Assembly: GCA_030706745.1 (NCBI GenBank) | Contig: JAUZNX010000004.1 | Coordinates: 1-64,000 of the forward strand | DNA length: 64,000 bases | Source: Bacteroidota bacterium | GTDB lineage: Bacteria; Bacteroidota; Ignavibacteria; Palsa-1295 | Reading direction: 5' to 3' | Shown here: one piece after another, positions 2,014 to 22,424 of the stretch | How positions within the stretch are numbered: position 1 is the first letter of the stretch | Layout of the letters: every line of letters begins with the position of its first letter | Position numbers and translations under genes: made by a program | Notes under the pieces: model-generated | The model's input: the letters and a program-made list of their open reading frames with translations, nothing else | Told to the model about the DNA's origin: nothing | The model's database searches: none

Positions 2014-4937
2014 TGAAGCTACCCAACCACACCACTGATGGCCGTCCGCTCGTCGTATTATTCGATGCGATGGCGCTTGCCTATCGGGCGTATTTTGCGT
2101 TTATCACGCGGCCGCTGACGAATGCGCGAGGCGAGAACACGAGTGCGGTCTATGGCTTCATGACGGCGTTGTTCCAATTTCTCGATCATCATGCGCCGGC
2201 TTATGCTGCGGTTTGCTTCGATACGCCACATCCTACGTTTCGGCACAAGCGGTTCGAGGCTTACAAGGCAACACGGCAGGCGATGCCTGACGATCTTCCT
2301 CCGCAGTTGGAGAAGATCAAAGAGATCATCCGCGCCTTCCGGATCCCGATGATTGAAGTGCCGGGCTTCGAGGCGGATGACATCATCGGCACGCTGGCCC
2401 GCATGGCGGAGCAAGCGGGAATGGAATCGTTGCTCGTCACGCCGGATAAAGATTTCTGCCAGTTGGTTGGGGATCACGTCAAGATTCTGCGTCCATCTCG
2501 TGATGGTGGCGCAATGGAAATTTACGATACCGAGATGGTCCGGCAAAAGTACGGCCTCGAGCCAAAGCAGATCATCGACTATCTCGCGCTCGTTGGCGAT
2601 GCCAGCGATAATATTCCTGGTGTGCGCGGCATTGGCGAAAAGACTGCTGCGCCACTATTGCAAAAGTTTGGCTCGCTTGCGAATCTATACGAACACATTG
2701 CTGAAGTCGACAAGAAGGGCATCAAGGACAAGCTCACAAACGAGCGCGACAATGCATTCCTTTCTTATGAACTTGCGACGATCGACACGAGCGTTACGCT
2801 ACCGCTCACGCTCGAAGGTATTCGGTATGGTGTCCTGCCCGATTTCGATGCGCTCGACCTGCTGGTGCACGATCTTGGGTTTAAGTCGCTGGCAAACCGG
2901 CTGCACCAACTGAAGGAGGACTTGCTCAAATCGGAATCTTCCCAAACGCTGGAAATGGCGCTTGCGCCGGAGGACACAACTAAAGAGCGTACCGAAGAGG
3001 AGCAACTCGAAGCGTTCGATTTCGCAGTTGGACCATCGACGGAGGAACAGGATATTCACTCGTGGCCGCATGCCTATGTGATGATCCGCACGATTGAAGG
3101 CGTGCATGAGCTTGCGAAGCTCCTAGCCGAACAGCACGAATTCTGCGTCGATCTGGAATCGACCGGACAAGATGCGAACACGGCGGAGATCATCGGTATC
3201 TCGTTCGCAGTCAAGCCGGGGGAGGCATTCTATATTCCGATTCACTTGCCGGATATCGGCTCGGACATCGATGCCACATCGCTATTCGAACATACTCCGC
3301 CATCGAGCGCCGAAAATGCGCTCACAATGGGCCTGCCGCTTGCCGACGTATTGAATGTGCTGCGGCCTGTGCTGGAAAACGAGCATATCGGGAAGGTTGG
3401 ACAGAATATCAAGTACGATGCGCTCTTGCTGCGGCATAATGGCGTCCATATGCGGCCGCTGACCTTCGACACGATGATCGCGGCCTATCTCTATCGGTTC
3501 GATGGTTCGCATTCGATGGACGCATTATCGATCGAGCATCTGAAATATCGGCCCGTGCCGCTGGCGGATGTGGTCGGGCAACTAAAGGATGGCACGGCCC
3601 GTCGCAGCATGGCCATCGCGCCGACTGTGAAGCTGGCCAAATATGGCGCTGAGGATGCGGACGTCACGCTCCGGTTGCGGCATGTCCTGGCTCCGAAGCT
3701 CGAAGAAGTGAATGTTGCAAAGCTTTGTAAGGACGTAGAATTCCCGCTGGTAGAGGTACTGACGCAAATGGAATATCACGGCGTCAAGATCGATTCGGAA
3801 CTACTCGGACTTGCAAGCAAGGAGATGGAGCGCGAAGCCGAGAACCTTTGCCGGCAGATCTACGAGTATGCAGGTGGGCCATTCAATATCGATTCGCCGA
3901 AACAGCTTCAGGAGATACTCTTCACAAAGCTCGGACTGCAATCGGGACGCAAGACAAAGACGGGTCTTTCGACGGCCGCCAACGTACTCGAAGACTTACG
4001 GCACGAGCATCCAATTGCCGAGTGTCTTCTTTCCTACCGGCAGTATCAGAAGTTGCGTGGGACGTATGTCGATGCACTTCCTCGCATGGTGAACCCAAAG
4101 ACGGGTATGGTGCACACGAGCTACAATCAGGCGGTCGTCGCCACGGGTCGTATTTCATCGACCGATCCTAACCTTCAGAATATTCCGATCAAGACGGAGA
4201 TGGGCCGCGACATTCGTAAGGCGTTCGTATCGCGGTTCAAGCATGGCCAGATTCTTTCGGCGGATTACTCACAGATCGAGCTTCGAATCATGGCGCATGT
4301 CACGCGCGATGCCGGTCTGATCGAAGCATTCTCGCAAGGTCAGGATATCCACACTCGCACGGCCGCAGGAATTTTTGGTGTGCCGCTCGAAGAGGTTACG
4401 CGCGAAATGCGGGGCAAGGCAAAGGGTGTGAACTACGGTATCATGTACGGGATCGGTGCATTCGGTCTTGCGAGGAACGTCCGCATTACCCAGAAGGAAG
4501 CATCCGAGATCATCCAGAAATACTTCGCGGCGTTTCCGCTGATTCGGAAGTACATGGACGACACGATCAAGTTCGCACGCACGAACGGTTACGTGGAAAC
4601 ACTACTTGGACGCCGTCGGTACATGCGAAATATCTCGGCAGCAAATCAGGCCGTCCGTTCGGCCGATGAGCGCGCTGCGATCAATGCGCCCATTCAGGGT
4701 ACGGCTGCCGACATGATGAAGCTCGCGATGATTGACATCCATCGTGAAATGGCCCGCCGCAACATGCGGAGCATCATGATCATGCAGGTCCACGATGAGC
4801 TAGTATTCGATGTTGTGCCAGAAGAAGCCGACGAGATGATGCCCCTGGTCAAGGGACTCATGTCGAACGCGATGCCGATGGTCGTGCCGATCGATGTCGA
4901 AGCGGGCATCGGGCCGACATGGTTCGAGGCACACTAA
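2013..4937 (+). CDS. polA: DNA polymerase I
   Basis: 974 aa, three domains. The 5'-nuclease occupies about residues 10-300 (FDTPHPTFRH, FEADDIIGTLA, VGDASDNIPGVRGIGEKTA). The 3'-5' exonuclease (about 360-560) looks intact: D379/E381 in VDLES, the QNIKYD motif and Y-G-A-E-D. The polymerase has motif A SADYSQIELR (~750), motif B R800-K804-Y808-Y812 and motif C QVHDE (~926). It repairs DNA and removes Okazaki primers. Unusually, the motif B aromatic residue equivalent to E. coli Phe762 is Tyr808 (NYGIMYG). The start overlaps the SprT-like stop. It converges on the M16 gene across a 19-bp inverted repeat. Confidence 0.97.
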   Translation: MKLPNHTTDGRPLVVLFDAMALAYRAYFAFITRPLTNARGENTSAVYGFMTALFQFLDHHAPAYAAVCFDTPHPTFRHKRFEAYKATRQAMPDDLPPQLEKIKEIIRAFRIPMIEVPGFEADDIIGTLARMAEQAGMESLLVTPDKDFCQLVGDHVKILRPSRDGGAMEIYDTEMVRQKYGLEPKQIIDYLALVGDASDNIPGVRGIGEKTAAPLLQKFGSLANLYEHIAEVDKKGIKDKLTNERDNAFLSYELATIDTSVTLPLTLEGIRYGVLPDFDALDLLVHDLGFKSLANRLHQLKEDLLKSESSQTLEMALAPEDTTKERTEEEQLEAFDFAVGPSTEEQDIHSWPHAYVMIRTIEGVHELAKLLAEQHEFCVDLESTGQDANTAEIIGISFAVKPGEAFYIPIHLPDIGSDIDATSLFEHTPPSSAENALTMGLPLADVLNVLRPVLENEHIGKVGQNIKYDALLLRHNGVHMRPLTFDTMIAAYLYRFDGSHSMDALSIEHLKYRPVPLADVVGQLKDGTARRSMAIAPTVKLAKYGAEDADVTLRLRHVLAPKLEEVNVAKLCKDVEFPLVEVLTQMEYHGVKIDSELLGLASKEMEREAENLCRQIYEYAGGPFNIDSPKQLQEILFTKLGLQSGRKTKTGLSTAANVLEDLRHEHPIAECLLSYRQYQKLRGTYVDALPRMVNPKTGMVHTSYNQAVVATGRISSTDPNLQNIPIKTEMGRDIRKAFVSRFKHGQILSADYSQIELRIMAHVTRDAGLIEAFSQGQDIHTRTAAGIFGVPLEEVTREMRGKAKGVNYGIMYGIGAFGLARNVRITQKEASEIIQKYFAAFPLIRKYMDDTIKFARTNGYVETLLGRRRYMRNISAANQAVRSADERAAINAPIQGTAADMMKLAMIDIHREMARRNMRSIMIMQVHDELVFDVVPEEADEMMPLVKGLMSNAMPMVVPIDVEAGIGPTWFEAH

Positions 4938-12570: not shown

Positions 12571-13146
12571 TCACGCTGGCTGCTCGGCGCGGAGGCGCTT
12601 CTGGAGTTCAAGGGCGACGTAATGGAAGATCACCGAGTGGACGCTTTCGGACGTACACATGTCATTAAGCGGGACGTGGACGGAAGACTGGGCGATCTGC
12701 TTGAGCTTGCCACCACCAAAGCCTGTTATACCGACCGTATGCATCCCATTGGCATTGGCCCATTCGATCGCATGGATGATATTGGGGCTATTGCCGGAGC
12801 CCGAAATGGCTATGAGGATGTCATTGGGGCGGGCCAGGGTGCGCAGTTGCTGCTCGAAGATTGTATGGTAGCCATCATCGTTGCCATACGCTGTCATGAG
12901 GGCGACGTTGTCCGTGAGCGAGAGTGCTCGGAGCCGCTTGGGCTGGTCCTTGGAGTAGAGGGTGCCTTTGGCAAGGTCATTCGCAAAGTGCGAGGCATTG
13001 GCAGCGCTGCCACCGTTGCCGATGACGAACACCGTGCGATCATGATCGTAGGCGTCCATAAGCAACTCGATGAATCGGGCGACTTCTGTGGAGTCGAGGG
13101 AACTGAGCGACTGATTGAAATAGCTGAGGTATTCTGGAAAGGTCAT
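12571..13146 (-). CDS. gmhA: phosphoheptose isomerase (SIS domain)
   Basis: 191 aa, single SIS domain: FVIGNGGSAANASHFANDLAKG near residues 40-61 and ISGSGNSPNIIHAIEWA near 113-129. It converts sedoheptulose 7-phosphate to glycero-manno-heptose 7-phosphate, the first step of nucleotide-heptose synthesis for surface polysaccharide. The heptose kinase and phosphatase genes at 13.5-15.1 kb make this assignment stronger than a generic SIS call. It is separated from them by a ~370-nt gap carrying a possible small plus-strand gene. Confidence 0.88.
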   Translation of the reverse strand: MTFPEYLSYFNQSLSSLDSTEVARFIELLMDAYDHDRTVFVIGNGGSAANASHFANDLAKGTLYSKDQPKRLRALSLTDNVALMTAYGNDDGYHTIFEQQLRTLARPNDILIAISGSGNSPNIIHAIEWANANGMHTVGITGFGGGKLKQIAQSSVHVPLNDMCTSESVHSVIFHYVALELQKRLRAEQPA

Positions 13147-13324
13147 GGGTGTAGGATTGGCAACAGGCTGGATGAGCTAAATCATCCCAATGCAAACTTC
13201 AGTGGAAAAAGGCCATACAGTACAGCTAAAGTTTCGCTGAATGTTTATATTTTAACGGATTCTCGGTGCGGTTTGGCCCTGGAGTTGAGGAATTACGGCT
13301 TAGTTAATAGACCAATCATTCAAT

Positions 13325-13495
13325 ATGGAACCGTCGAATACGAATTCTAACTGGGAGGCCTCTGACCGGGTGGAGCGAATTCTGCGAATTCAAAATGTTG
13401 CGACGCAACTCGCTTTATTGGTCATCCAGACCCGTCAGCGAAACGAAGAATCCGATGATCGCCGCGAAACGAACAACGATCGCGAGGCGGATTGA
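13325..13495 (+). CDS. possible small protein, 56 aa
   Basis: ATG at 13325 to TGA at 13493-13495. The predicted product has an amphipathic middle (VERILRIQNVATQLALLVIQ) and a strongly charged tail rich in Glu, Arg and Asp. It fills the gap between gmhA and the histidine phosphatase gene, which both lie on the minus strand. No family is recognised and no clear ribosome-binding site is seen. The call rests on its protein-like composition and position only. Confidence 0.35.
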   Translation: MEPSNTNSNWEASDRVERILRIQNVATQLALLVIQTRQRNEESDDRRETNNDREAD

Positions 13496-13516
13496 AAGAG
13501 GCTATGCGCCAAAGAT

Positions 13517-14155
13517 TTATGTGCCGGGAAGATTTTTGAGCTGCTCGCTTAGATGTGAGCGGTCACCGATTTGCTCGATGAGCGGACCATGCGCTCCAAA
13601 CTGAACAATACTCACCGAACCAACCGGGCATGCGAGACGATAACGAAATCGTCCGACATCAATGCCGATGAGTGCGCAGAGCGCGATTCGAATGGTGGCT
13701 TTATGTGAGACGATGAGGACCTTCCCATCCTGAAATGCATCTCGAATTTCCTGAATAACAGAGAGTGCGCGCCGAGAGACAGCAATGGCCGACTCGCCGT
13801 CAGTCGGTGGATACCACGCGGGATCGGCGATCCAACTCACGTGCTCATCATGATATGTTCGGTCAACTTCCTCGACCGATTTTCCTTCCCACGCTCCGTA
13901 ACCAATTTCGGTCAGATTGTCGCGTTGCTGCAACTGGATGCCGGAATTTGTAGTGATGATCTCGGCTGTCACCCGAGTTCGTTCGAGTGGCGAATGGTAG
14001 ATTGCTTTCCATGCAGTATCCTTGTAGAATTCCGCGAACTCGCGAGCCATTACCTGGCCCGGCTCGGTCAGCGGGATATCTGTTCCGGAGCCACAGAAGA
14101 GGTTCTCGCGGCTGGACGCTGTTTGACCGTGTCGCAAAAAATAAATCTGGAGCAT
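13517..14155 (-). CDS. histidine phosphatase family protein
   Basis: 212 aa, phosphoglycerate-mutase-like fold. The catalytic LRHGQT (R8-H9-G10) is at the N-terminus, HSPLERTRVTAE follows, and the second catalytic His is in VLIVSHKATIR. It directly follows the hddA-like kinase gene, whose stop codon abuts this start, so the two are co-translated. The context suggests it dephosphorylates a sugar phosphate, possibly the heptose 1,7-bisphosphate made by its neighbour, replacing the usual HAD phosphatase GmhB. That role is inference; alternatives are a general phosphomonoesterase or a cobalamin-type phosphatase. Confidence 0.85.
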   Translation of the reverse strand: MLQIYFLRHGQTASSRENLFCGSGTDIPLTEPGQVMAREFAEFYKDTAWKAIYHSPLERTRVTAEIITTNSGIQLQQRDNLTEIGYGAWEGKSVEEVDRTYHDEHVSWIADPAWYPPTDGESAIAVSRRALSVIQEIRDAFQDGKVLIVSHKATIRIALCALIGIDVGRFRYRLACPVGSVSIVQFGAHGPLIEQIGDRSHLSEQLKNLPGT

Positions 14156-15145
14156 CTACCACTGATAGCGTCGTTGATTGAAAATAATTGTCGCGCCAAA
14201 ATTATCGAGCATAAACGGCATCTGCCGGTATGTGGAAAGGGCGTCGCGGACTTTGGCTTGATTCTCCGGCTTGACATAGAGCAGCAAGAAGCCACCACCG
14301 CCAGCGCCGGCAAGCTTTCCTCCAAGCGCCCCGGCTTTCCGAGCGCGATCGTACATCTGATCGATTTCGGAAGTTGTTATTCCGCTTGCGAGTTGTTTTT
14401 TCAGCCTCCAATTTTCGTCGAGTACCTCGCCGATCTCATCGAATCGCTTAGCTCGAACAGCAATTTCGACCTTTTTGCCGAGTGCGTGGATCGCCTGCAG
14501 ACTTTGGCGATTGTCACCGGTTTTTTCCCGCTGCTCCGTCAAGATTGTCGATGCCTGCCTGGTGATGTTAGTGAAGAACAGCATGAAGTGCTGCCCGAGA
14601 TAGTGGCGCTCGCGCTCGGTGAGGTCCAGGCGCTCGGTCGTGACGCGTTCGGATCCATGAAACGTGATTCCACACAGTCCGCCGTGCGCCGCAATGTATT
14701 GGTCCTGTTTGCCGATTGGCTTCTTCAGAATTTCGATTTCGATCGCGCAGGCTTCTTCGGCCAGCTGATCGTGCGTGACTTGCCGGCCACGGAAAGTATA
14801 CATCGCGTTCAGCAACCCAACGGTCAAACTGCTCGAGGAGCCGAGTCCAGAACCCTCAGATGGAATATCCGCGAAGGTTGCAAGTTCGAAGCCATTCCGC
14901 AGGCCCGCAAAAAGTCCAGCTTCGCGAACGAGTTCATGCTGAATTTCGGAAATGTCATCGACGATTTCCTTGCGCGCGGCATAATTCAGATAGATCTTGT
15001 CGTCAAAGCGCTCCTTGATCAGCACATAGACATACTTATCGAGCGCGGTGGAAACCACGAACCCATCGGAGTCTTTGTAATAGGCTCGAAGGTCCGTACC
15101 GCCTCCGGCGAGGCTAATACGAAGCGGTGTTTGACTAATCAACAT
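14156..15145 (-). CDS. hddA: GHMP kinase, D-glycero-D-manno-heptose 7-phosphate kinase-like
   Basis: 329 aa. GHMP motifs: SQTPLRISLAGGGTDL at the N-terminus, the ATP loop PSEGSGLGSSSSLTVGLL near residues 93-110, KQDQYIAAHGG, and the C-terminal KLAGAGGGGFLLLYV. HddA-type kinases phosphorylate heptose 7-phosphate at the 1 position on the route to GDP- or ADP-heptose. The operon order is HIT protein, kinase, histidine phosphatase. Related fucose or arabinose kinases share the motifs, but gmhA nearby favours heptose. Confidence 0.85.
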   Translation of the reverse strand: MLISQTPLRISLAGGGTDLRAYYKDSDGFVVSTALDKYVYVLIKERFDDKIYLNYAARKEIVDDISEIQHELVREAGLFAGLRNGFELATFADIPSEGSGLGSSSSLTVGLLNAMYTFRGRQVTHDQLAEEACAIEIEILKKPIGKQDQYIAAHGGLCGITFHGSERVTTERLDLTERERHYLGQHFMLFFTNITRQASTILTEQREKTGDNRQSLQAIHALGKKVEIAVRAKRFDEIGEVLDENWRLKKQLASGITTSEIDQMYDRARKAGALGGKLAGAGGGGFLLLYVKPENQAKVRDALSTYRQMPFMLDNFGATIIFNQRRYQW

Positions 15146-15577
15146 TTAGGCAGGAGTCCTTTCTATTTCAGCACGAATCCTTCGGGCAATATCGGCCATC
15201 TCATGGTCCGGAATCTCCCGCAAGATTTTTGGATCGGGAAGTTCACCGTGGCCATCATCCTCGAACCTCGGGACAAGATGCACGTGCGCATGGGGAACAC
15301 CAATACCACCCGTATCTGCGATGACCCACTCCGTGTTGAATACCGTTTGGAGGGCCCTTGCAACTCGCCGGACCTTCATAAACAAGAACCCGATATCCGC
15401 CCGGTCCATATCCCACACCCAGCGAACATGGTGCTTCGGAATGAACTGTGTATGTCCGGGATTTAGAGGATATCGATCGAGAAAGCCGAGATATTCAGCG
15501 TCCTCATAAATGATCTCATGCGGATTCCGACCTGCGATAATATCGCAAAAGACGCAATCGGGGTCGGGGCTTGGCAT
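15146..15577 (-). CDS. HIT family protein
   Basis: About 143 aa from the ATG at 15577 (residues MPSPDPDCVFCDII). An in-frame ATG 54 nt upstream adds a non-family leader. Zinc-type CVFC at the start, then the histidine triad GVPHAHVHLVPR. HIT proteins hydrolyse or transfer nucleoside monophosphates from dinucleotides. Its stop abuts the heptose kinase start, so a role with nucleotide sugars is possible but not shown. Confidence 0.88.
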   Translation of the reverse strand: MPSPDPDCVFCDIIAGRNPHEIIYEDAEYLGFLDRYPLNPGHTQFIPKHHVRWVWDMDRADIGFLFMKVRRVARALQTVFNTEWVIADTGGIGVPHAHVHLVPRFEDDGHGELPDPKILREIPDHEMADIARRIRAEIERTPA

Positions 15578-15614
15578 AGCGGAGTGTGACAAATTGGTGT
15601 GCAAAAATACGCCA

Positions 15615-16634
15615 TTACGCTCGAACCGCACCAGAACGGTTCACGAGAATGACTTTCGAATCCGAATATGTTTCGCCAGTCACGAATGAAGCCGTCGAAA
15701 GTGCATCGGCATCCAGTCCGCATTTGGCGATGACTGTTGCGGATAATACGCGGTCCGCCGAGTGGCCAACGCGGGGATCCATGATATGCCCATACTTCTG
15801 CGCCTGAAAGACCACGTACGACATGTAATTACCACTGGTCGCAAGTGCCTCGTTGGAGATTCGGGTTCTGTATATGAGCTTCCTCGTGTCGCGCGGATCG
15901 GGTACGGCAACATCCCAACCATCGTGTCCGTGCGGCGCACCAAGTGCGAACATGTCGCCCGAGATGTCGATGAAGGCACGTTCAATTCCGGCATGCTTGA
16001 TGATGGCGATCATGGCATCGAGTGCATAACCAACTGCAATGCCACCCAAATCGATCTTGGCCCCTTCGTTACGCAGGCGTGCGGCAGGAGTGGTCTGTGT
16101 TGCGCGTAACTCGATTTGATTCGAACCGATCAGTCTAACTGCAGAGGCAATCGCGTCGGCGGAGGGGAGTTGCGTCAGGATATTCGAATTATTTCGAAAT
16201 CCCCATAACCGCATCAGAGGCTCAACGGTAACGTCAAATGCCTTATCGGTTATTTTTGAAACCTCAACGGATTTAGATAGAATAGATGAGACCTCTGATG
16301 AAATGCTGAGATACCGACCGCCAGCTTCTGCGTTGAGTTTCGAAATCTCGCTGGAGGCATCGAAAATGGTGAACAGTGCTTCGAGTCGCTTGAGCTCGTT
16401 AAATGCCTCGGTAATAACATGGTTCGCTTCCTCTTCACTCGCTGCGTAGACGCCCATGCGTGCTGTTGTGCCCATCGCAAGGATTGTATGCTCGTAATAT
16501 GCTGCACAGGCGTGATTCCGCGCGTCACTCATACTTAGCTTGCCGATACTCCTTGCCGCCGGAAGCATGACGAGAACTCCGCATGCTTGCGAAGCTCGTT
16601 TCAAGAATATTCGTCGCGTCAGTACTTCTTTCAT
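15615..16634 (-). CDS. apbE: ApbE-family FAD:protein FMN transferase
   Basis: About 339 aa from the ATG at 16634. A twin-arginine-type leader (RRIFLKRASQACG) predicts export. ApbE motifs include HTILAMGTTARMGVYA, the flavin-binding region KIDLGGIAVGYALD, DISGDMFALG and the C-terminal YGHIMDPRVGHSAD. It transfers FMN from FAD to a Ser/Thr of a periplasmic acceptor. The likely substrate, an FMN-binding domain protein, is encoded two genes upstream (17215-17757). The start overlaps the stop of the membrane-protein gene (ATGA), so it is co-translated. Confidence 0.92.
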   Translation of the reverse strand: MKEVLTRRIFLKRASQACGVLVMLPAARSIGKLSMSDARNHACAAYYEHTILAMGTTARMGVYAASEEEANHVITEAFNELKRLEALFTIFDASSEISKLNAEAGGRYLSISSEVSSILSKSVEVSKITDKAFDVTVEPLMRLWGFRNNSNILTQLPSADAIASAVRLIGSNQIELRATQTTPAARLRNEGAKIDLGGIAVGYALDAMIAIIKHAGIERAFIDISGDMFALGAPHGHDGWDVAVPDPRDTRKLIYRTRISNEALATSGNYMSYVVFQAQKYGHIMDPRVGHSADRVLSATVIAKCGLDADALSTASFVTGETYSDSKVILVNRSGAVRA

Positions 16635-17218
16635 CGAGTGCGCAATTCCCTGATGAGCGCAAGACATTGTCCGGCAAATGCAAGCGCCATGACGGTCCCG
16701 GAAAGCGAGACGAGCCAACTAAATGCCGGGTGCACATACCTCATCAACCAAAGCCCAGCAAATGTAATGAGGATTCCGATAAATGGCTCGAGGACAATTA
16801 ACTTCCGCAATTGACTATTGAGCGAATCGGTCATTAGTGTAATAAATCCGGACAGTGCGAAGATGAACGTCATCGTTAGGATGTGCGTGTGGATGATGTT
16901 CAGCATCTCGGCGAGCGATTTCTGATACTCGATTTCGCCGGTACCAGTTTTACTAGCTGATTGGATGGTCTGGGTCGTATCCTCGGCTTCTTCAGACGAA
17001 AGTTCAGATGATGGGGATGTATTGGAGGCAGAGGCTGCTTGCGATTCTGTCCCACGATAGCGTTCTTCGATACCTGCGGGGATCATGCGCGTCGTTTGAT
17101 AGACGTATGCCAGCGCATGGGCGTACCCGACACCAAGCACGAGCATAATCAGCGCAGCAAACAGTTGTGCTTCGCGCGGAAGATTCCGTAGCAATGGTAG
17201 CGAGCGGACTTCCCTCAT
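16631..17218 (-). CDS. four-TM membrane protein with conserved-looking histidines
   Basis: 195 aa. TM helices at about 17-40, 107-130, 138-160 and 167-188, with a Ser/Thr/Glu-rich loop (55-100) between the first two. Histidines sit at helix positions H34, H110, H112 and H163, which could ligate heme or bind quinone (inference only). No family is identified with certainty. It lies between the FMN-binding and ApbE genes with ATGA overlaps on both sides, so it is probably the membrane part of the same electron-transfer unit. Confidence 0.75.
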   Translation of the reverse strand: MREVRSLPLLRNLPREAQLFAALIMLVLGVGYAHALAYVYQTTRMIPAGIEERYRGTESQAASASNTSPSSELSSEEAEDTTQTIQSASKTGTGEIEYQKSLAEMLNIIHTHILTMTFIFALSGFITLMTDSLNSQLRKLIVLEPFIGILITFAGLWLMRYVHPAFSWLVSLSGTVMALAFAGQCLALIRELRTR

Positions 17219-17757
17219 AGCTTACCGGCCTTTCGAAGCTCATCGAAGAGCACGGCAATCTTTTTCGCCCCGTGAGTAATGGCTTTGCTGGAGATAGTCG
17301 CACCGGCAATATTCTCGATGTCCGCACCGACCCGCAACGGTGATGACGCCTGCTTGCCACGAAATTGCCTGCGAAAGGACTCATATTGTATCTCGCCGCC
17401 ATATGGCTCACGATAGATCAGCACTTCGATCTCGGCGATCTTGCCATCGGGGCGAAACAGTGTCACATAGGTGATCGGCTGCGCTTTACCACGAACATCA
17501 TCTACAATGCCATAGCCGATAACCTTACCATCGAGCACAGCTTCGTGAATGATCGCTTTGTCGTGCACGGCTTCGCCGGAACGAGCAGCGACATGCGCGG
17601 CCACCACGTTATCGATCATGATTGTCTCCTTCTTCATCTCGCACTTCTCGCCAAAAACACGGCGTATGGATGCATCGGCCTTTTGCGCGATGGATTGCGC
17701 ATTCGCGGTTGGTGTAGCAACGACAAAGAAAATCCCAAGCGCCCGGAGAAATCTCAA
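17215..17757 (-). CDS. periplasmic FMN-binding domain protein
   Basis: 180 aa with a signal peptide ending ...TANAQ near residue 21. FMN-binding domain with the flavinylation motif AGATIS (151-156); Ser156 is the predicted covalent FMN acceptor, equivalent to Thr in NqrC/RnfG SGATxT. The start is TTG at 17757 and overlaps the porin stop. With apbE two genes on, this is a covalently flavinylated extracytosolic redox carrier. Placement downstream of Fur and FTR1 suggests ferric reduction during iron uptake (inference). Confidence 0.9.
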   Translation of the reverse strand: MRFLRALGIFFVVATPTANAQSIAQKADASIRRVFGEKCEMKKETIMIDNVVAAHVAARSGEAVHDKAIIHEAVLDGKVIGYGIVDDVRGKAQPITYVTLFRPDGKIAEIEVLIYREPYGGEIQYESFRRQFRGKQASSPLRVGADIENIAGATISSKAITHGAKKIAVLFDELRKAGKL

Positions 17758-18950
17758 AACGCAAATCCTCCACCCAGACTAAATTGTTTGTAATCGGCCT
17801 TACCATCGATGCTCGTGATGCGATAATCAATTTTGAAAATGATAGCATCGAGTGGTTTGAATGCAATCCCAGCCACGAATGATGAAGTGACAATATCACC
17901 GGCACCCGCCACCAGATTATCACCTTCGAGGATAAGAGTCGAACCGGTAGCACGACGATAGGCTGTCATGTGCTCGTATCGCACGAATGGCAGCAACTCC
18001 GCTTCGTGATTCGGCCATAAGCTCAGCACATTGTATGCTGCCTCGAAATAACCACCGGAAAAATACTTTGGACCCGGATTGACAACAGAATCAACGAGAT
18101 GCACGAACCCAACTTCTCCTCGAACGTGAAGTGGTCCGTGTTCATAGCGTGCGTCGAGGATTGCCATTCCGAGCGTTCGACTTACGGCCATGGGGGTGTC
18201 GATTGGCTGCATTTCCGCAAATGCATTGGGCTGAACATACCCTGCGAGACCCACGCGAAGTCCTGCCAGGGGCAAGTAGTCGAGCTTCATGGAAAGTGCC
18301 GGATGCGAAGCATCACTCCCGGCAACGAGGTCGCTTGTCGCATCTCCGGCAGAGCCTTCCTGCTTGCCGCCATCAAGCCCCCCCATAGTGATATCAGCCG
18401 CCTGCAATCCCTCGGTCAGATAGAGTTGGTACTTCACGCCTTCCGTGATGTCGCCATAGATTCCCGTTCCAATTTCACGCCATGTTGTGGGAATAACCTG
18501 CTGATCGAAGAGCGGACGTTCGACACTATAGAACGTATTCGGTTCATGCGTTTGATTGATGATCCCCATCGGAATCAGGATCAAGCCGCCGCGCCAGCCA
18601 ATATGCTGATTCGCGTGGTAATCGAGGAACGCCTGCTCGAATCCAAGCTCGCCGCCGGCGGCGCGTTCGAGCTTCACGTTTTCGACCTCGAACTCCGACT
18701 TAAAGACCCATCGATCGCTGAAGTCGTGATCGATGTAAAGCACGATGCGGGGAAGATTGAGCCGAGGCACATCACCCACACTCGGCCGTTTGTAAGTCAT
18801 CTCGCCGTATCCACCCAGATGGGTCTGATCGAGAAACGTTTGAAGATTCGACGGGGCCGGACGCGAAGAATCTTCGCTCGATTGCCCAAATGCCGAAGAA
18901 GCGATGAGCGCAAACGGGAGCACGAATAGAATCAACTTATTAAGACTCAT
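17754..18950 (-). CDS. porin-like outer-membrane beta-barrel (OprP/OprO-like)
   Basis: About 398 aa from the ATG at 18950 (MSLNKLILFVLPFALIASSAFGQ signal peptide); an in-frame ATG 33 nt upstream is less likely. The mature part has GGYGEMTYKRP, IDHDFSDRWVFKSEFEVENV and a C-terminal aromatic residue (GGGFAF), as in phosphate-selective porin-like barrels. The substrate is unknown. Overlap with the FMN-binding gene and position in the Fur/FTR1 run make it a candidate outer-membrane entry for iron. Confidence 0.82.
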   Translation of the reverse strand: MSLNKLILFVLPFALIASSAFGQSSEDSSRPAPSNLQTFLDQTHLGGYGEMTYKRPSVGDVPRLNLPRIVLYIDHDFSDRWVFKSEFEVENVKLERAAGGELGFEQAFLDYHANQHIGWRGGLILIPMGIINQTHEPNTFYSVERPLFDQQVIPTTWREIGTGIYGDITEGVKYQLYLTEGLQAADITMGGLDGGKQEGSAGDATSDLVAGSDASHPALSMKLDYLPLAGLRVGLAGYVQPNAFAEMQPIDTPMAVSRTLGMAILDARYEHGPLHVRGEVGFVHLVDSVVNPGPKYFSGGYFEAAYNVLSLWPNHEAELLPFVRYEHMTAYRRATGSTLILEGDNLVAGAGDIVTSSFVAGIAFKPLDAIIFKIDYRITSIDGKADYKQFSLGGGFAF

Positions 18951-19037
18951 TCGTCGCAATCGGGCAGAGCCATGAGGATTCATTGGGTCAGGTTTTTTGA
19001 AGTGACAGGCTAAAGAAACTCGGTGTGCGGAGTTGAC

Positions 19038-20258
19038 CTACTCGGTCCAGTCCGCGACAAAAATGTTCGTGTTGTGTGGATGCGACCCATTGCGATTCGA
19101 GCAAAAGACGAGTTTTTTGCCGTCGCGGGTAAACATTGGGAAGCTGTTGAACCCGCCGCCGGTGGTGACACGCTTCAGATGCGTGCCATCTTTATCGATC
19201 ATAAACAGCTCGAAATCGCGATGATGCTTTTTGTCGAGATAATTCGAAGAGAAAATGATGCGCTTGCCATCGGGATGCCAGTATGGCGCGAAGCTCGCTG
19301 CGTTCAAGTGCGTGACCTGCCGCTTATTACTCCCATCGGCATTCATCACCCAAATCTCGAGTTCCGTCGGCTTGACCAGTCCTTTCTTCAGGAGCGCCCG
19401 ATATTCGGTGAGGGCTTCTCCTTGCGGACGCGATGCGCGGTATACGATTTCTTTGCCGTCCGGCGAAAAGTATGCGCCACCATCATATCCCTCTTCGTGC
19501 GTGAGTTGTCGGAGGCCCGTACCATCGAGCTTCATCGACCAGAGTTCGATATCGCCGGAGCGCGTGCTGGTAAAGACAATTCGGTCGCCCTTTGGGGAGA
19601 CCGTTGCCTCAGCGTCGTAAATACCCTCGTTGTGAGTAAGCTGACCAATTTGCTTTCCGGTTGTATCGGCGAGATAAATATCGTAGCCGCCATCGAGCGG
19701 CCAGACATAGCCCTGCGACATATCGGGTTGTGGCGGGCAGGCACCATCATAATGCTCGTGTGTCGATGCGTAGAGAATCGTGTCGCCACCCGGATAAAAA
19801 TACGAACAGGTTGTCCGTCCTTTACCAGTCGAGATCCGCTTGACGTTCTTCCCGTCAATTGTCATCATGTAAATCTGATCGCAGGTGTTTGGCTTGACAC
19901 CATGAGCCTGGAAGGTCAGATACTTATCGTCTGGACTCAGATAGGCTTCGGCATTTTCACCCTCGAAGGTCAACTGCATAATGTTTTGGAGGTACTGCTC
20001 GCCGATATAGTGACAAGAATCAGGTAACGGCTTTGCGCCGGCGAACTGCCGCGAAGCATCAATGCCACCATTGTCATCGGCGCTCAACACATAGATAGGC
20101 GACATCTTCAGTGTGCGAAGCGTGTAAGAGCTGCTGCTCATGATGCTTCGTCTGGAGGTGTCCGCCGGAGGAGCCGAGGGTTTTGGCGCCGAGAATTGTG
20201 CCTGAGCAATAAAGGGAAAAAGCAGGAGGAGTAAGGTTGCTACTAGGAATGCCTTCAT
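19038..20258 (-). CDS. TolB-like beta-propeller exported protein
   Basis: 406 aa. Signal peptide MKAFLVATLLLLLFPFIAQAQ, then PD40/TolB-type blades: AYLSPDDKYLTFQAHG, TVSPKGDRIVFTSTRSGDIELW, YFSPDGKEIVYRA, YWHPDGKRIIFSSN, MFTRDGKKLVFCSNRNGSHP. The sequence between the second and third blades contains several Cys and His (TTCSYF, HEHYDGACPP). Periplasmic; such propellers mediate protein-protein contacts. It lies between FTR1 and the porin on the same strand, so it may belong to the iron operon. Confidence 0.85.
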   Translation of the reverse strand: MKAFLVATLLLLLFPFIAQAQFSAPKPSAPPADTSRRSIMSSSSYTLRTLKMSPIYVLSADDNGGIDASRQFAGAKPLPDSCHYIGEQYLQNIMQLTFEGENAEAYLSPDDKYLTFQAHGVKPNTCDQIYMMTIDGKNVKRISTGKGRTTCSYFYPGGDTILYASTHEHYDGACPPQPDMSQGYVWPLDGGYDIYLADTTGKQIGQLTHNEGIYDAEATVSPKGDRIVFTSTRSGDIELWSMKLDGTGLRQLTHEEGYDGGAYFSPDGKEIVYRASRPQGEALTEYRALLKKGLVKPTELEIWVMNADGSNKRQVTHLNAASFAPYWHPDGKRIIFSSNYLDKKHHRDFELFMIDKDGTHLKRVTTGGGFNSFPMFTRDGKKLVFCSNRNGSHPHNTNIFVADWTE

Positions 20259-20308
20259 CTTGATCGAATGGGTTCTATGAAATCAATGGGTTCAAGATAA
20301 TCGTCTGG

Positions 20309-21109
20309 TCATGCTCCCGCATTCGCAAGTCGATGCTTTCGTCGGCCGGTTTGCAGCGCGTGCCCAAAATGATAAATAACCAGCGCGAAGAACAGCACAA
20401 GTCCGGCATAGGAGAAAACCGGTACCTGATCGTGCAAAAAATCGATCGCATTGTTCAGAGCCTGACTGGAGAATGGCGGAATGAATCCGCCTTCGCCAGC
20501 TTCGTGCAACACATCGAAGACAAGTTGCACGACGAAGAACAACAAAACGAATGCTGTTGATTGCAGAAACTTGCCAATATTAACCTTGACGAGGCCGCGC
20601 GAGAGCCCGTATGCGAGCAACACTGCACAGCCAATGCCTGCGAGCATTGCGAGTACATAAAAATGTCCGCCAACGCCAGCGCCAAAGGCAAGCAGCATGA
20701 GCACCATCTCGAATCCTTCACGGGAAATCATAAAGAATACAAACGCGAACATTCCGAGCATTGCCATTTTGCTTGGCGCTGCACCGTAGCGATCGAGCCT
20801 TGACTCGATATTGCCTTTCAGCTTCTTTCCGGCTCGCATCATCCAAAAGACCATCGTCGCGACGGTCACGGCTGCGGCGGAATACAGCGCAAGTTCGACA
20901 CCATGATTGTTTACAAGTGCGACCGATCCCAACGCGATGCCGCCGATGGTACACGCCGCGATTGCGGACCAAATTCCAGCTTTCGCCACCCGCCGCAATT
21001 CCATTTCGCCACGTTTACGGAGCGCGACGAGTACAGTCATGATAATGAGCGAAGCCTCGATACCTTCCCGGAAGGCGATGACGAATTGATTGAAGAGTTG
21101 GTCGAGCAT
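20309..21109 (-). CDS. FTR1-family iron permease
   Basis: 266 aa, about seven TM helices. The two iron-path motifs are R14-EGI-E18 and R130-EGF-E134 (REXXE). FTR1/EfeU proteins move ferric iron across the inner membrane. No EfeO/EfeB or P19 partner is encoded nearby; instead the same strand carries a flavinylated protein, ApbE and a porin. It starts 17 nt after the fur stop, so it is co-transcribed with the regulator. Confidence 0.93.
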   Translation of the reverse strand: MLDQLFNQFVIAFREGIEASLIIMTVLVALRKRGEMELRRVAKAGIWSAIAACTIGGIALGSVALVNNHGVELALYSAAAVTVATMVFWMMRAGKKLKGNIESRLDRYGAAPSKMAMLGMFAFVFFMISREGFEMVLMLLAFGAGVGGHFYVLAMLAGIGCAVLLAYGLSRGLVKVNIGKFLQSTAFVLLFFVVQLVFDVLHEAGEGGFIPPFSSQALNNAIDFLHDQVPVFSYAGLVLFFALVIYHFGHALQTGRRKHRLANAGA

Positions 21110-21126
21110 AGCGTTCGTGCTAAGTG

Positions 21127-21720
21127 TTATCGATTATTACGGACCTCATCGAGCGAAAGGATACCGCCGGATCCGGGAATACCGGTCACCGCGGCAGCTT
21201 GAATGGCGTGGGGTCGCGTTGTCGCAGTTGCTGCTACAGCAGAGGAGCCCGTCCTGCAATCCGCACAGATACCAAAGATCTGAAACGAGTGGTACGTTGG
21301 GGTAAAGCCGTATTGCGCGCAGGAATCGTCCTGCATGCGCTCGACGCGAGAATTTTCGAATTCGATGATCTTTCCACACCGAGTACAGACCATGTGGTCG
21401 TGATGCGGGCGGTCCGTGGTCTTCTCGTATTGCGCGTGACCTTGCGAAAACCGGTAGCGCGAGACGAGCCCGCACTCATGTAATAGGTTCAGGGTTTTAT
21501 AAACTGTGGCCCGGGATACTTTCGACCCGCTGTTCTTGAGATATATAAACAGGTTGTCGGCGTCGAAATGGTCGTTCCATGCGAGGACGGCATCCAATAC
21601 CTCGAACCGCTCGGGGGTAATGCGATACTGACCATCCTGTAAGAATTTGCGGAAATGTTCGTGGGGTTTGGTCCCGGCCATGACCGGTTTCTTTCGAGTT
21701 GTTTTGGGGAGTGTCTTCAT
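21127..21720 (-). CDS. fur: Fur-family transcriptional regulator
   Basis: 197 aa, longer than typical Fur (~150) because of a low-complexity Ala/Thr-rich C-terminal tail. Winged helix (RITPERFEVLDAVLA, VSRATVYKTLNLL) then the metal site HHDHMVCTRCGKIIEFE and C-terminal CADC. Probably an iron-responsive repressor controlling its own operon with FTR1: a 17-bp palindrome ends 8 nt upstream of its start region (21729-21745). Confidence 0.92.
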   Translation of the reverse strand: MKTLPKTTRKKPVMAGTKPHEHFRKFLQDGQYRITPERFEVLDAVLAWNDHFDADNLFIYLKNSGSKVSRATVYKTLNLLHECGLVSRYRFSQGHAQYEKTTDRPHHDHMVCTRCGKIIEFENSRVERMQDDSCAQYGFTPTYHSFQIFGICADCRTGSSAVAATATTRPHAIQAAAVTGIPGSGGILSLDEVRNNR

Positions 21721-21728
21721 GCTGTTTA

Positions 21729-21745
21729 TTAAGACTCAGTCTCAA
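21729..21745. promoter_or_regulatory. candidate Fur box
   Basis: TTAAGACT-C-AGTCTCAA, an 8-1-8 palindrome with one mismatch, directly upstream of fur. It also lies about 120 nt upstream of the divergent Rieske gene. The shape (inverted AGACT half-sites) resembles Fur operators. Autoregulation of the fur-FTR1 operon is the natural reading; binding is not shown. Confidence 0.6.
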
Positions 21746-21866
21746 TACAATCTTCGGTCCCGGGAAGTTCCAAAAGAACAAAGGGCGGAGCCACAACCGA
21801 TACGTCACATGAATTCCCTCGCGCCGCCTCAGAAACGGCTTCGATATAGTTTGGGGTTATCGCAAC

Positions 21867-22424
21867 ATGAAGCGTAGGAAATTTCTGGAGGTAGTCTGCT
21901 CGGCTAGCGCGGGACTCGTCATTGCCGGCTCTGCGATCGACCTGGCTAGTATCGGAACGCTCCGAGCGCGCTCGCGTCTTGCCGCGAATGATGTGCGCGA
22001 AGTGCCGATTAGTCTTGAGGATACCCCTGATCTGAAGCCAGTAGGAGGCACCTATCATCTCTCGGTCGAGGACCTTGAGCGCGAAATCCTAGTCGTGCAT
22101 GTCAGCAAAGACCAGTACATTGCGGTCGATATCAAGTGTAAGCACAAAGGCTGCGACATTAATTATGAAGCCGCGCAGAAAAAATTCATTTGCCCGTGCC
22201 ATGGCTCGGAATACGATCTTGCTGGAGCCAACCTGAAAGGCCCATCCGTAAAGCCCTTGAACTACTACCATGCGGAGTTGCGTGGTAACGAGGTCGTCGT
22301 GACCGTCTATGGGCCGGACGATAAGCCGCCGGAAAACGCGACCCCACCGAAAGACACCACGCACAGAGAAGCTGTCTCCGATTCGAGCGTGGACATACCA
22401 GCAAACTCGCCCTTCTCGAAGTGA
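21867..22424 (+). CDS. Rieske [2Fe-2S] protein
   Basis: 185 aa. Twin-arginine-like leader MKRRKFLEVVCSASAGLVIAG (an RR near the start). Cluster ligands C91-x-H93 (CKHKGC) and C109/H112 (CPCHGS), plus the disulfide cysteines C96 and C111 typical of bc-type Rieske proteins. Electron carrier on the periplasmic side. No cytochrome b gene is adjacent, so its complex is unknown. It is divergent from fur and could share the palindrome at 21729-21745. Confidence 0.9.
   Translation: MKRRKFLEVVCSASAGLVIAGSAIDLASIGTLRARSRLAANDVREVPISLEDTPDLKPVGGTYHLSVEDLEREILVVHVSKDQYIAVDIKCKHKGCDINYEAAQKKFICPCHGSEYDLAGANLKGPSVKPLNYYHAELRGNEVVVTVYGPDDKPPENATPPKDTTHREAVSDSSVDIPANSPFSK

Follow-up and report, generated by a model that had tools for sequence, protein, structure and literature searches.

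A Fur-headed gene run linking an FTR1 permease to a porin, a flavoprotein and an undescribed membrane protein: a likely reductive iron-acquisition operon

FTR1 permeases are classically tied to ferric iron, so that a supply of Fe(II) to one is not an obvious arrangement. A locus in which fur and an FTR1 gene are followed by genes for a porin, a flavoprotein and ApbE raises the question of what these products do together, and whether FTR1 is the partner that matters.

Genes of the run and their products

In the window (the whole 64,000-nt stretch of DNA that was analysed), open reading frames and a Pfam scan place seven minus-strand genes at 15615-21720. We refer to the FMN-binding protein as FMNp, to the 4TM protein as TM4, to porin-FMNp-TM4(-ApbE) as the block, and to the genome that carries the window as the window genome (G000). 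The features are as follows.

21728-21746, no strand: Fur box with the palindrome ATTGAGACTGAGTCTTAAT, 8 nt before the fur start codon (ATG)
21127-21720, minus: fur, ferric uptake regulator, 197 aa (PF01475, 6.1e-31)
20309-21109, minus: FTR1 iron permease, 266 aa (PF03239, 2.2e-27; two REXXE motifs)
19038-20258, minus: secreted PD40 beta-propeller, 406 aa (PF07676, 5e-39)
17754-18983, minus: outer-membrane porin, 409 aa (16-strand AlphaFold2 model; OprP/OprO/OmpF type by Foldseek)
17215-17757, minus: FMNp, signal peptide, 180 aa (PF04205, 7.3e-8; AGATIS acceptor site)
16631-17218, minus: TM4, four-helix inner-membrane protein, 195 aa (invariant HxH; no Pfam, NCBIfam or PDB match)
15615-16634, minus: apbE, FAD:protein FMN transferase, 339 aa, Tat-like signal (PF02424, 2e-69)

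Gaps of 17 nt (fur-FTR1), 50 nt (FTR1-propeller) and 54 nt (propeller-porin), in which a weak test found no terminator-like sites, separate the first genes, and there is a 4-nt overlap at each junction of porin, FMNp, TM4 and apbE. The preliminary description had reported seven same-strand genes from fur to apbE with overlaps or short gaps and a propeller between, and all seven open reading frames were indeed present. We infer that fur to apbE are transcribed as one unit, an operon. Past apbE lie HIT, GHMP kinase, phosphatase and SIS genes (12571-15583, minus strand), which look like a heptose-pathway cluster and have the same order in G164, a genome of the same genus.

The permease belongs to the FTR1 family, with a PF03239 score of 96.5 bits against a cut-off of 25.3 and the motifs REGIE14 and REGFE130. 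FMNp has an FMN_bind domain, a GAT motif, an extracytosolic signal (a signal peptide, assigned by eye) and a linked ApbE, the features of an ApbE-flavinylated FMN-bind protein. Its AGATIS motif, noted in the preliminary description, was confirmed at residue 151, and GAT and S156 are invariant in 21 homologs. The window motif opens with A (AGAT); the usual flavinylation motif opens with S or T. The family profile aligns with RnfG (9eri_G, 3.7e-12) and at the sequence level FMNp is RnfG-like. The window ApbE is the sole ApbE of its genome and, in a family sample of 13 genomes, FMN_bind and ApbE occur as one copy each in exactly the same three (G000, G164 and G289), so that no FMN_bind substrate other than FMNp was found for the enzyme.

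TM4 has no Pfam, NCBIfam or PDB-sequence match, and its model (four transmembrane helices, pLDDT 87.5) has no significant fold match. Known cytochromes, DUF2871 and CopD were considered and rejected, as they gave insignificant matches only. Pfam, NCBIfam and structural matches to the known flavinylation transmembrane classes (NapH, MsrQ, PepSY, DsbD, NQR/RNF-like and DUF4405) were likewise absent, and TM4 is an undescribed protein family. An alignment of 40 homologs conserves the HxH (H110, H112) and G56 in all. By the positive-inside rule, applied by eye, the HxH is placed on the periplasmic side, at the end of TM2 that faces FMNp. An HxH carried by one helix is not a usual heme site; a heme or metal may be bound there, and TM4, for which no structural relative was found, would be an electron carrier.

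The AlphaFold2 model of the porin (16 strands, pLDDT 81) has OmpT, OprP/OprO and OmpF as its nearest folds by Foldseek. A large MtrB-like electron conduit was not favoured, as the model shows a porin of the usual 16-strand kind. Its likeness to the phosphate porins OprP/OprO lies in the 16-strand barrel and the top Foldseek matches; however, in place of their arginine ladder the conserved residues are acidic, not basic (E61, E97, E99, E101, E112, E116 and E147); H146 and HEP are conserved as well. Neither a basic ladder nor a Porin_O_P match marks the window porin as a phosphate-selective porin O/P, and 10 of 22 homologs match that family, the best at 4e-9. Several of the glutamates probably face the lumen, since their alternation along the strands suggests so. 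The true start of the porin is likely Met12, at 18950.

Conservation of the block and exchange of importers

In the family sample, which includes the window genome, G164 and G289 (another genus), FTR1 is present in 7 of the 13 genomes. The complete seven-gene order recurs in G289. G208 and G282 have fur-FTR1-propeller, and G267 and G273 have fur-FTR1, all four without the block; the propeller follows fur or fur-FTR1 in G208, G164, G289 and G282 and also, with one gene between, in G267. In G164 the order is fur-propeller-porin-FMNp-TM4-ApbE, with FTR1 absent between fur and the propeller. This genome keeps the block without FTR1 and without FeoB; its Nramp gene is preceded by a Fur box (site at 4751 of locus L176), which makes Nramp a possible third inner-membrane importer partner.

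Across the class, TM4 was matched in 36 of the 197 genomes searched. G329, of another family, has fur-FTR1-porin-FMNp-TM4-ApbE, with its FTR1 fused to an FtrD-like domain, and G316 has the order FTR1-porin-FMNp. In G305, G325, G344 and G362, of other families, the block instead follows Fur and FeoB (verified with Pfam), and FeoB is linked to the block in G004. When GTDB contigs were scanned with the FMNp alignment, 80 loci came up, with TM4 in 42 and FTR1 or FeoB flanking 12, in records whose names include Ignavibacteria, Gemmatimonadetes, Marinimicrobia, Nitrospirae, Planctomycetota, Lindowbacteria and Deltaproteobacteria. Linkage of Fur and an importer to porin-FMNp-TM4-ApbE is seen with FTR1 in the window, G289, G329, L086 and L147, and with FeoB in G305, G325, G344, G362, G004, L105, L137 and L145. 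The conservation of this neighbourhood, which the preliminary description had proposed as a check, thus holds in several phyla, in the form of a block linked to either FTR1 or FeoB.

It had also asked whether the block co-occurs with FTR1 more often than expected. Nine class-sample blocks have FTR1 or FeoB within about 5 kb, against about 0.2 expected by chance among about 36 blocks, a figure that is rough arithmetic from 1-3 importer genes in a genome of roughly 3.5 Mb, the loci being non-independent. This comparison takes the two importers together, and the tie is not specific to FTR1. The midpoint root of the FMNp tree has every importer- or Fur-linked copy on the same side, although the tree was made by a quick method and this root is weakly supported. 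On the importer-linked side FTR1 requires seven changes, at least five of them forced by well supported branches, and therefore the importers have been swapped repeatedly. We rejected FTR1 as an obligatory partner based on these exchanges with FeoB and its absence from block-bearing G164: the travelling unit is porin-FMNp-TM4(-ApbE), and FTR1 is merely one of its partners.

Could the two parts of the window run simply abut by chance, with fur-FTR1-propeller and porin-FMNp-TM4-ApbE separate in transcription and function? The genomes G208, G282 and G267, which carry the first module without the second, G164, which lacks FTR1, and the many genomes in which porin-FMNp-TM4 stands alone would agree with this. 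However, the gene grouping is beyond chance, because the seven-gene order recurs in G289 and fur-FTR1-porin-FMNp-TM4-ApbE recurs in another family (G329), with FeoB versions in others. Together with the distribution of Fur boxes described below, this makes chance abutment highly improbable.

Several loci depart from these arrangements. In L136 and L147 a DtxR-FeoA-type regulator is divergent from a cytochrome c-FTR1 fusion that is followed by FMNp-ApbE, L147 also having the porin and TM4, and a regulator of the same type adjoins the block in L162. L069-L073 (genus g133) have ApbE-porin-FMNp with a 314-325 aa membrane protein (no Pfam match) replacing TM4 and no Fur box. In the Bradyrhizobium loci L161, L163 and L164, FMNp-ApbE and a small membrane protein occur without TM4, and a 185 aa cytochrome b561 is encoded close by; Pfam confirms it in L161, and L163 and L164 have genes of the same size.

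Fur boxes at the run and at stand-alone blocks

A palindrome of the form ATTNAGACTNAGTCTNAAT lies directly upstream of fur, at the same place, in seven of the seven family genomes checked (the window genome and six others). It resembles the Fur box of Riemerella anatipestifer, ATTTAGAATTATCCTAAAT, which is supported by EMSA (PMC5609570), the window site itself being predicted from sequence. At two or fewer mismatches the window genome has two sites in total, one heading the run at fur and the other ahead of feoAB; the latter is at 4010 of locus L175 (G000:C12:39000-49000), about 0.5 kb before the feoB domain. G164 has three sites, including that before its Nramp gene, and the same box precedes fur-feoAB in G188, G124 and G255 and feoA in G236. 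The E. coli Fur-box consensus fits just a few loci. With a Fur box at its promoter, the run has the mark of a Fur-regulon member.

To score the 300 nt before each porin we used a matrix trained solely on boxes of fur and feo promoters, with a threshold of 10 bits. Among stand-alone blocks of the Bacteroidota type, porin promoters reached the threshold in 23 of 23 cases versus 6 of 252 other promoters at the same loci (Mann-Whitney p 1.8e-15, which overstates independence as the loci are related). The same was found for three of three porin promoters in Marinimicrobia and three of four in Planctomycetota, and in Gemmatimonadota the scores were shifted upward, with a related motif (p 7e-9). There was no Fur-box signal in proteobacterial FMNp-ApbE loci without TM4 or in the f49 loci. 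Blocks inside fur/importer runs, in contrast, had a porin-promoter box of their own in 0 of 12 cases, which is what one would see if the whole run is served by the box at fur. Since the loci are related, the contrast between these groups, rather than the p values, carries the argument.

A Fur box before the porin in the window run was rejected, the site being just a weak degenerate match of 7.7 bits. At about 18935-18955, by the likely porin start, there is a degenerate half box, AGTCTTAAT, and G164 has a fuller box there; the half box may be what is left of a stand-alone Fur site.

Most stand-alone blocks carry a Fur box yet have no adjoining importer, as would be expected of iron sparing, in which a Fur-induced flavin carrier of the envelope replaces heme or Fe-S carriers, acts on a non-iron substrate and is merely co-regulated with the importers. 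Redundancy of flavinylation and cytochromes in other systems (PMC8238504) points the same way. We nevertheless regard iron sparing as rather unlikely, because, on one side of the FMNp tree, the block is closely joined in operons to importers that replace one another, and because a porin with conserved acidic residues travels with it.

Across the Fur box of the window, divergent from fur, lies a gene for a Rieske protein with a Tat-like signal (21867-22424, plus strand). In G322 (locus L179) fur-FTR1-porin is followed by a Rieske protein that replaces FMNp-TM4-ApbE and, because of this substitution, the Rieske protein and the flavoprotein may be alternatives.

A reductive route and its relation to known systems

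We consider it likely that the run is a Fur-repressed operon for reductive iron acquisition, in which a periplasmic ferric reductase supplies Fe(II) to FTR1 or FeoB. When iron is scarce, Fur would come off its site (21728-21746), allowing expression of the run from fur to apbE. The porin would admit small iron species to the periplasm, ApbE would attach FMN covalently to Thr154 of FMNp, and TM4 would pass electrons to FMNp, probably from the quinol pool via the HxH site. The flavoprotein would then reduce Fe(III) to Fe(II), and import across the inner membrane would fall to FTR1 here and to FeoB in relatives and at the second Fur-box locus of the genome. Fe(III) as the substrate, the electron donor and the passage of iron through the porin are the presumptive steps of this scheme.

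The opposite direction of flow, in which the flavoprotein oxidizes Fe(II) to Fe(III) for FTR1 and TM4 returns electrons to quinone, has a parallel in fungi, where ferroxidases make Fe(III) for an FTR1-type permease, and the cytochrome c-FTR1 fusions of L136 and L147 would suit it. We think it very unlikely, as the block lies at least as often beside FeoB, which imports Fe(II). It is this exchange of FTR1 and FeoB at the same place that argues for a reductive rather than an oxidative function. The proposal in the preliminary description of a flavin-based ferric reductase or iron-redox module feeding FTR1 through a dedicated porin therefore survives in part. The heading box, the FTR1/FeoB linkage and the stand-alone boxes support a flavin redox module that is linked to iron, has a porin of its own and is controlled by Fur; they do not support the specific tie to FTR1, given the FeoB swaps, G164 without FTR1, the lack of an adjoining transporter at most blocks, and four other family genomes with FTR1 but no block. 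More tentatively, and with somewhat less than even confidence, we suggest that TM4 founds a new class of electron-transfer proteins in the membrane, one that reduces periplasmic proteins flavinylated by ApbE, and that the block is a complete Fur-controlled reductive uptake system with a cation-preferring channel, found in several phyla and served by FTR1, FeoB or Nramp. This suggests, in concrete and testable form, where FeoB or FTR1 of some diderm bacteria could obtain Fe(II), a step usually left blank, and names the TM4 and porin families as parts of it.

Among known systems, EfeUOB has an FTR1-family permease in common with the run. However, the window FTR1 scores 104 bits against the EfeU equivalog cut-off of 255, and the run has no EfeO or EfeB, a single M75-family (EfeO-domain) gene being unlinked, at C12. 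A P19-FTR1 system with an FMN-bind gene has been described (PMC8238504) and shares FTR1 and an FMN-binding protein with the run, which differs in having a porin, TM4 and ApbE and no P19 (PF10634 was found in 0 of the 13 family genomes). The DUF4405/FezC flavinylation cytochromes (PMC11334425) resemble TM4 as small membrane proteins with conserved histidines, encoded beside flavinylation genes and linked to iron; they have six transmembrane helices and four central His, whereas TM4 has four helices, one HxH and no Pfam match.

The closest precedent is the report that flavinylation genes colocalize with iron transporters, from which periplasmic iron reduction for uptake was proposed (Meheust et al., 2021, eLife; PMC8238504). 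The ApbE and FMN-bind protein beside iron transporters are as in the window run and, because of that colocalization and the P19-FTR1-FMN link, the connection of flavinylation to iron is already known in kind. The transporters of that study are VIT1, P19/FTR1 and TonB and its electron-transfer classes NapH, MsrQ, PepSY, DsbD and NQR/RNF-like, which exclude TM4; its main text mentions neither porin nor FeoB, and we found no description of the porin/TM4/FeoB/Fur architecture in the open-licence literature. To that colocalization the stand-alone Fur boxes add an independent regulatory argument, by which flavinylation is connected with iron uptake in several phyla through more than the neighbourhood of the genes.
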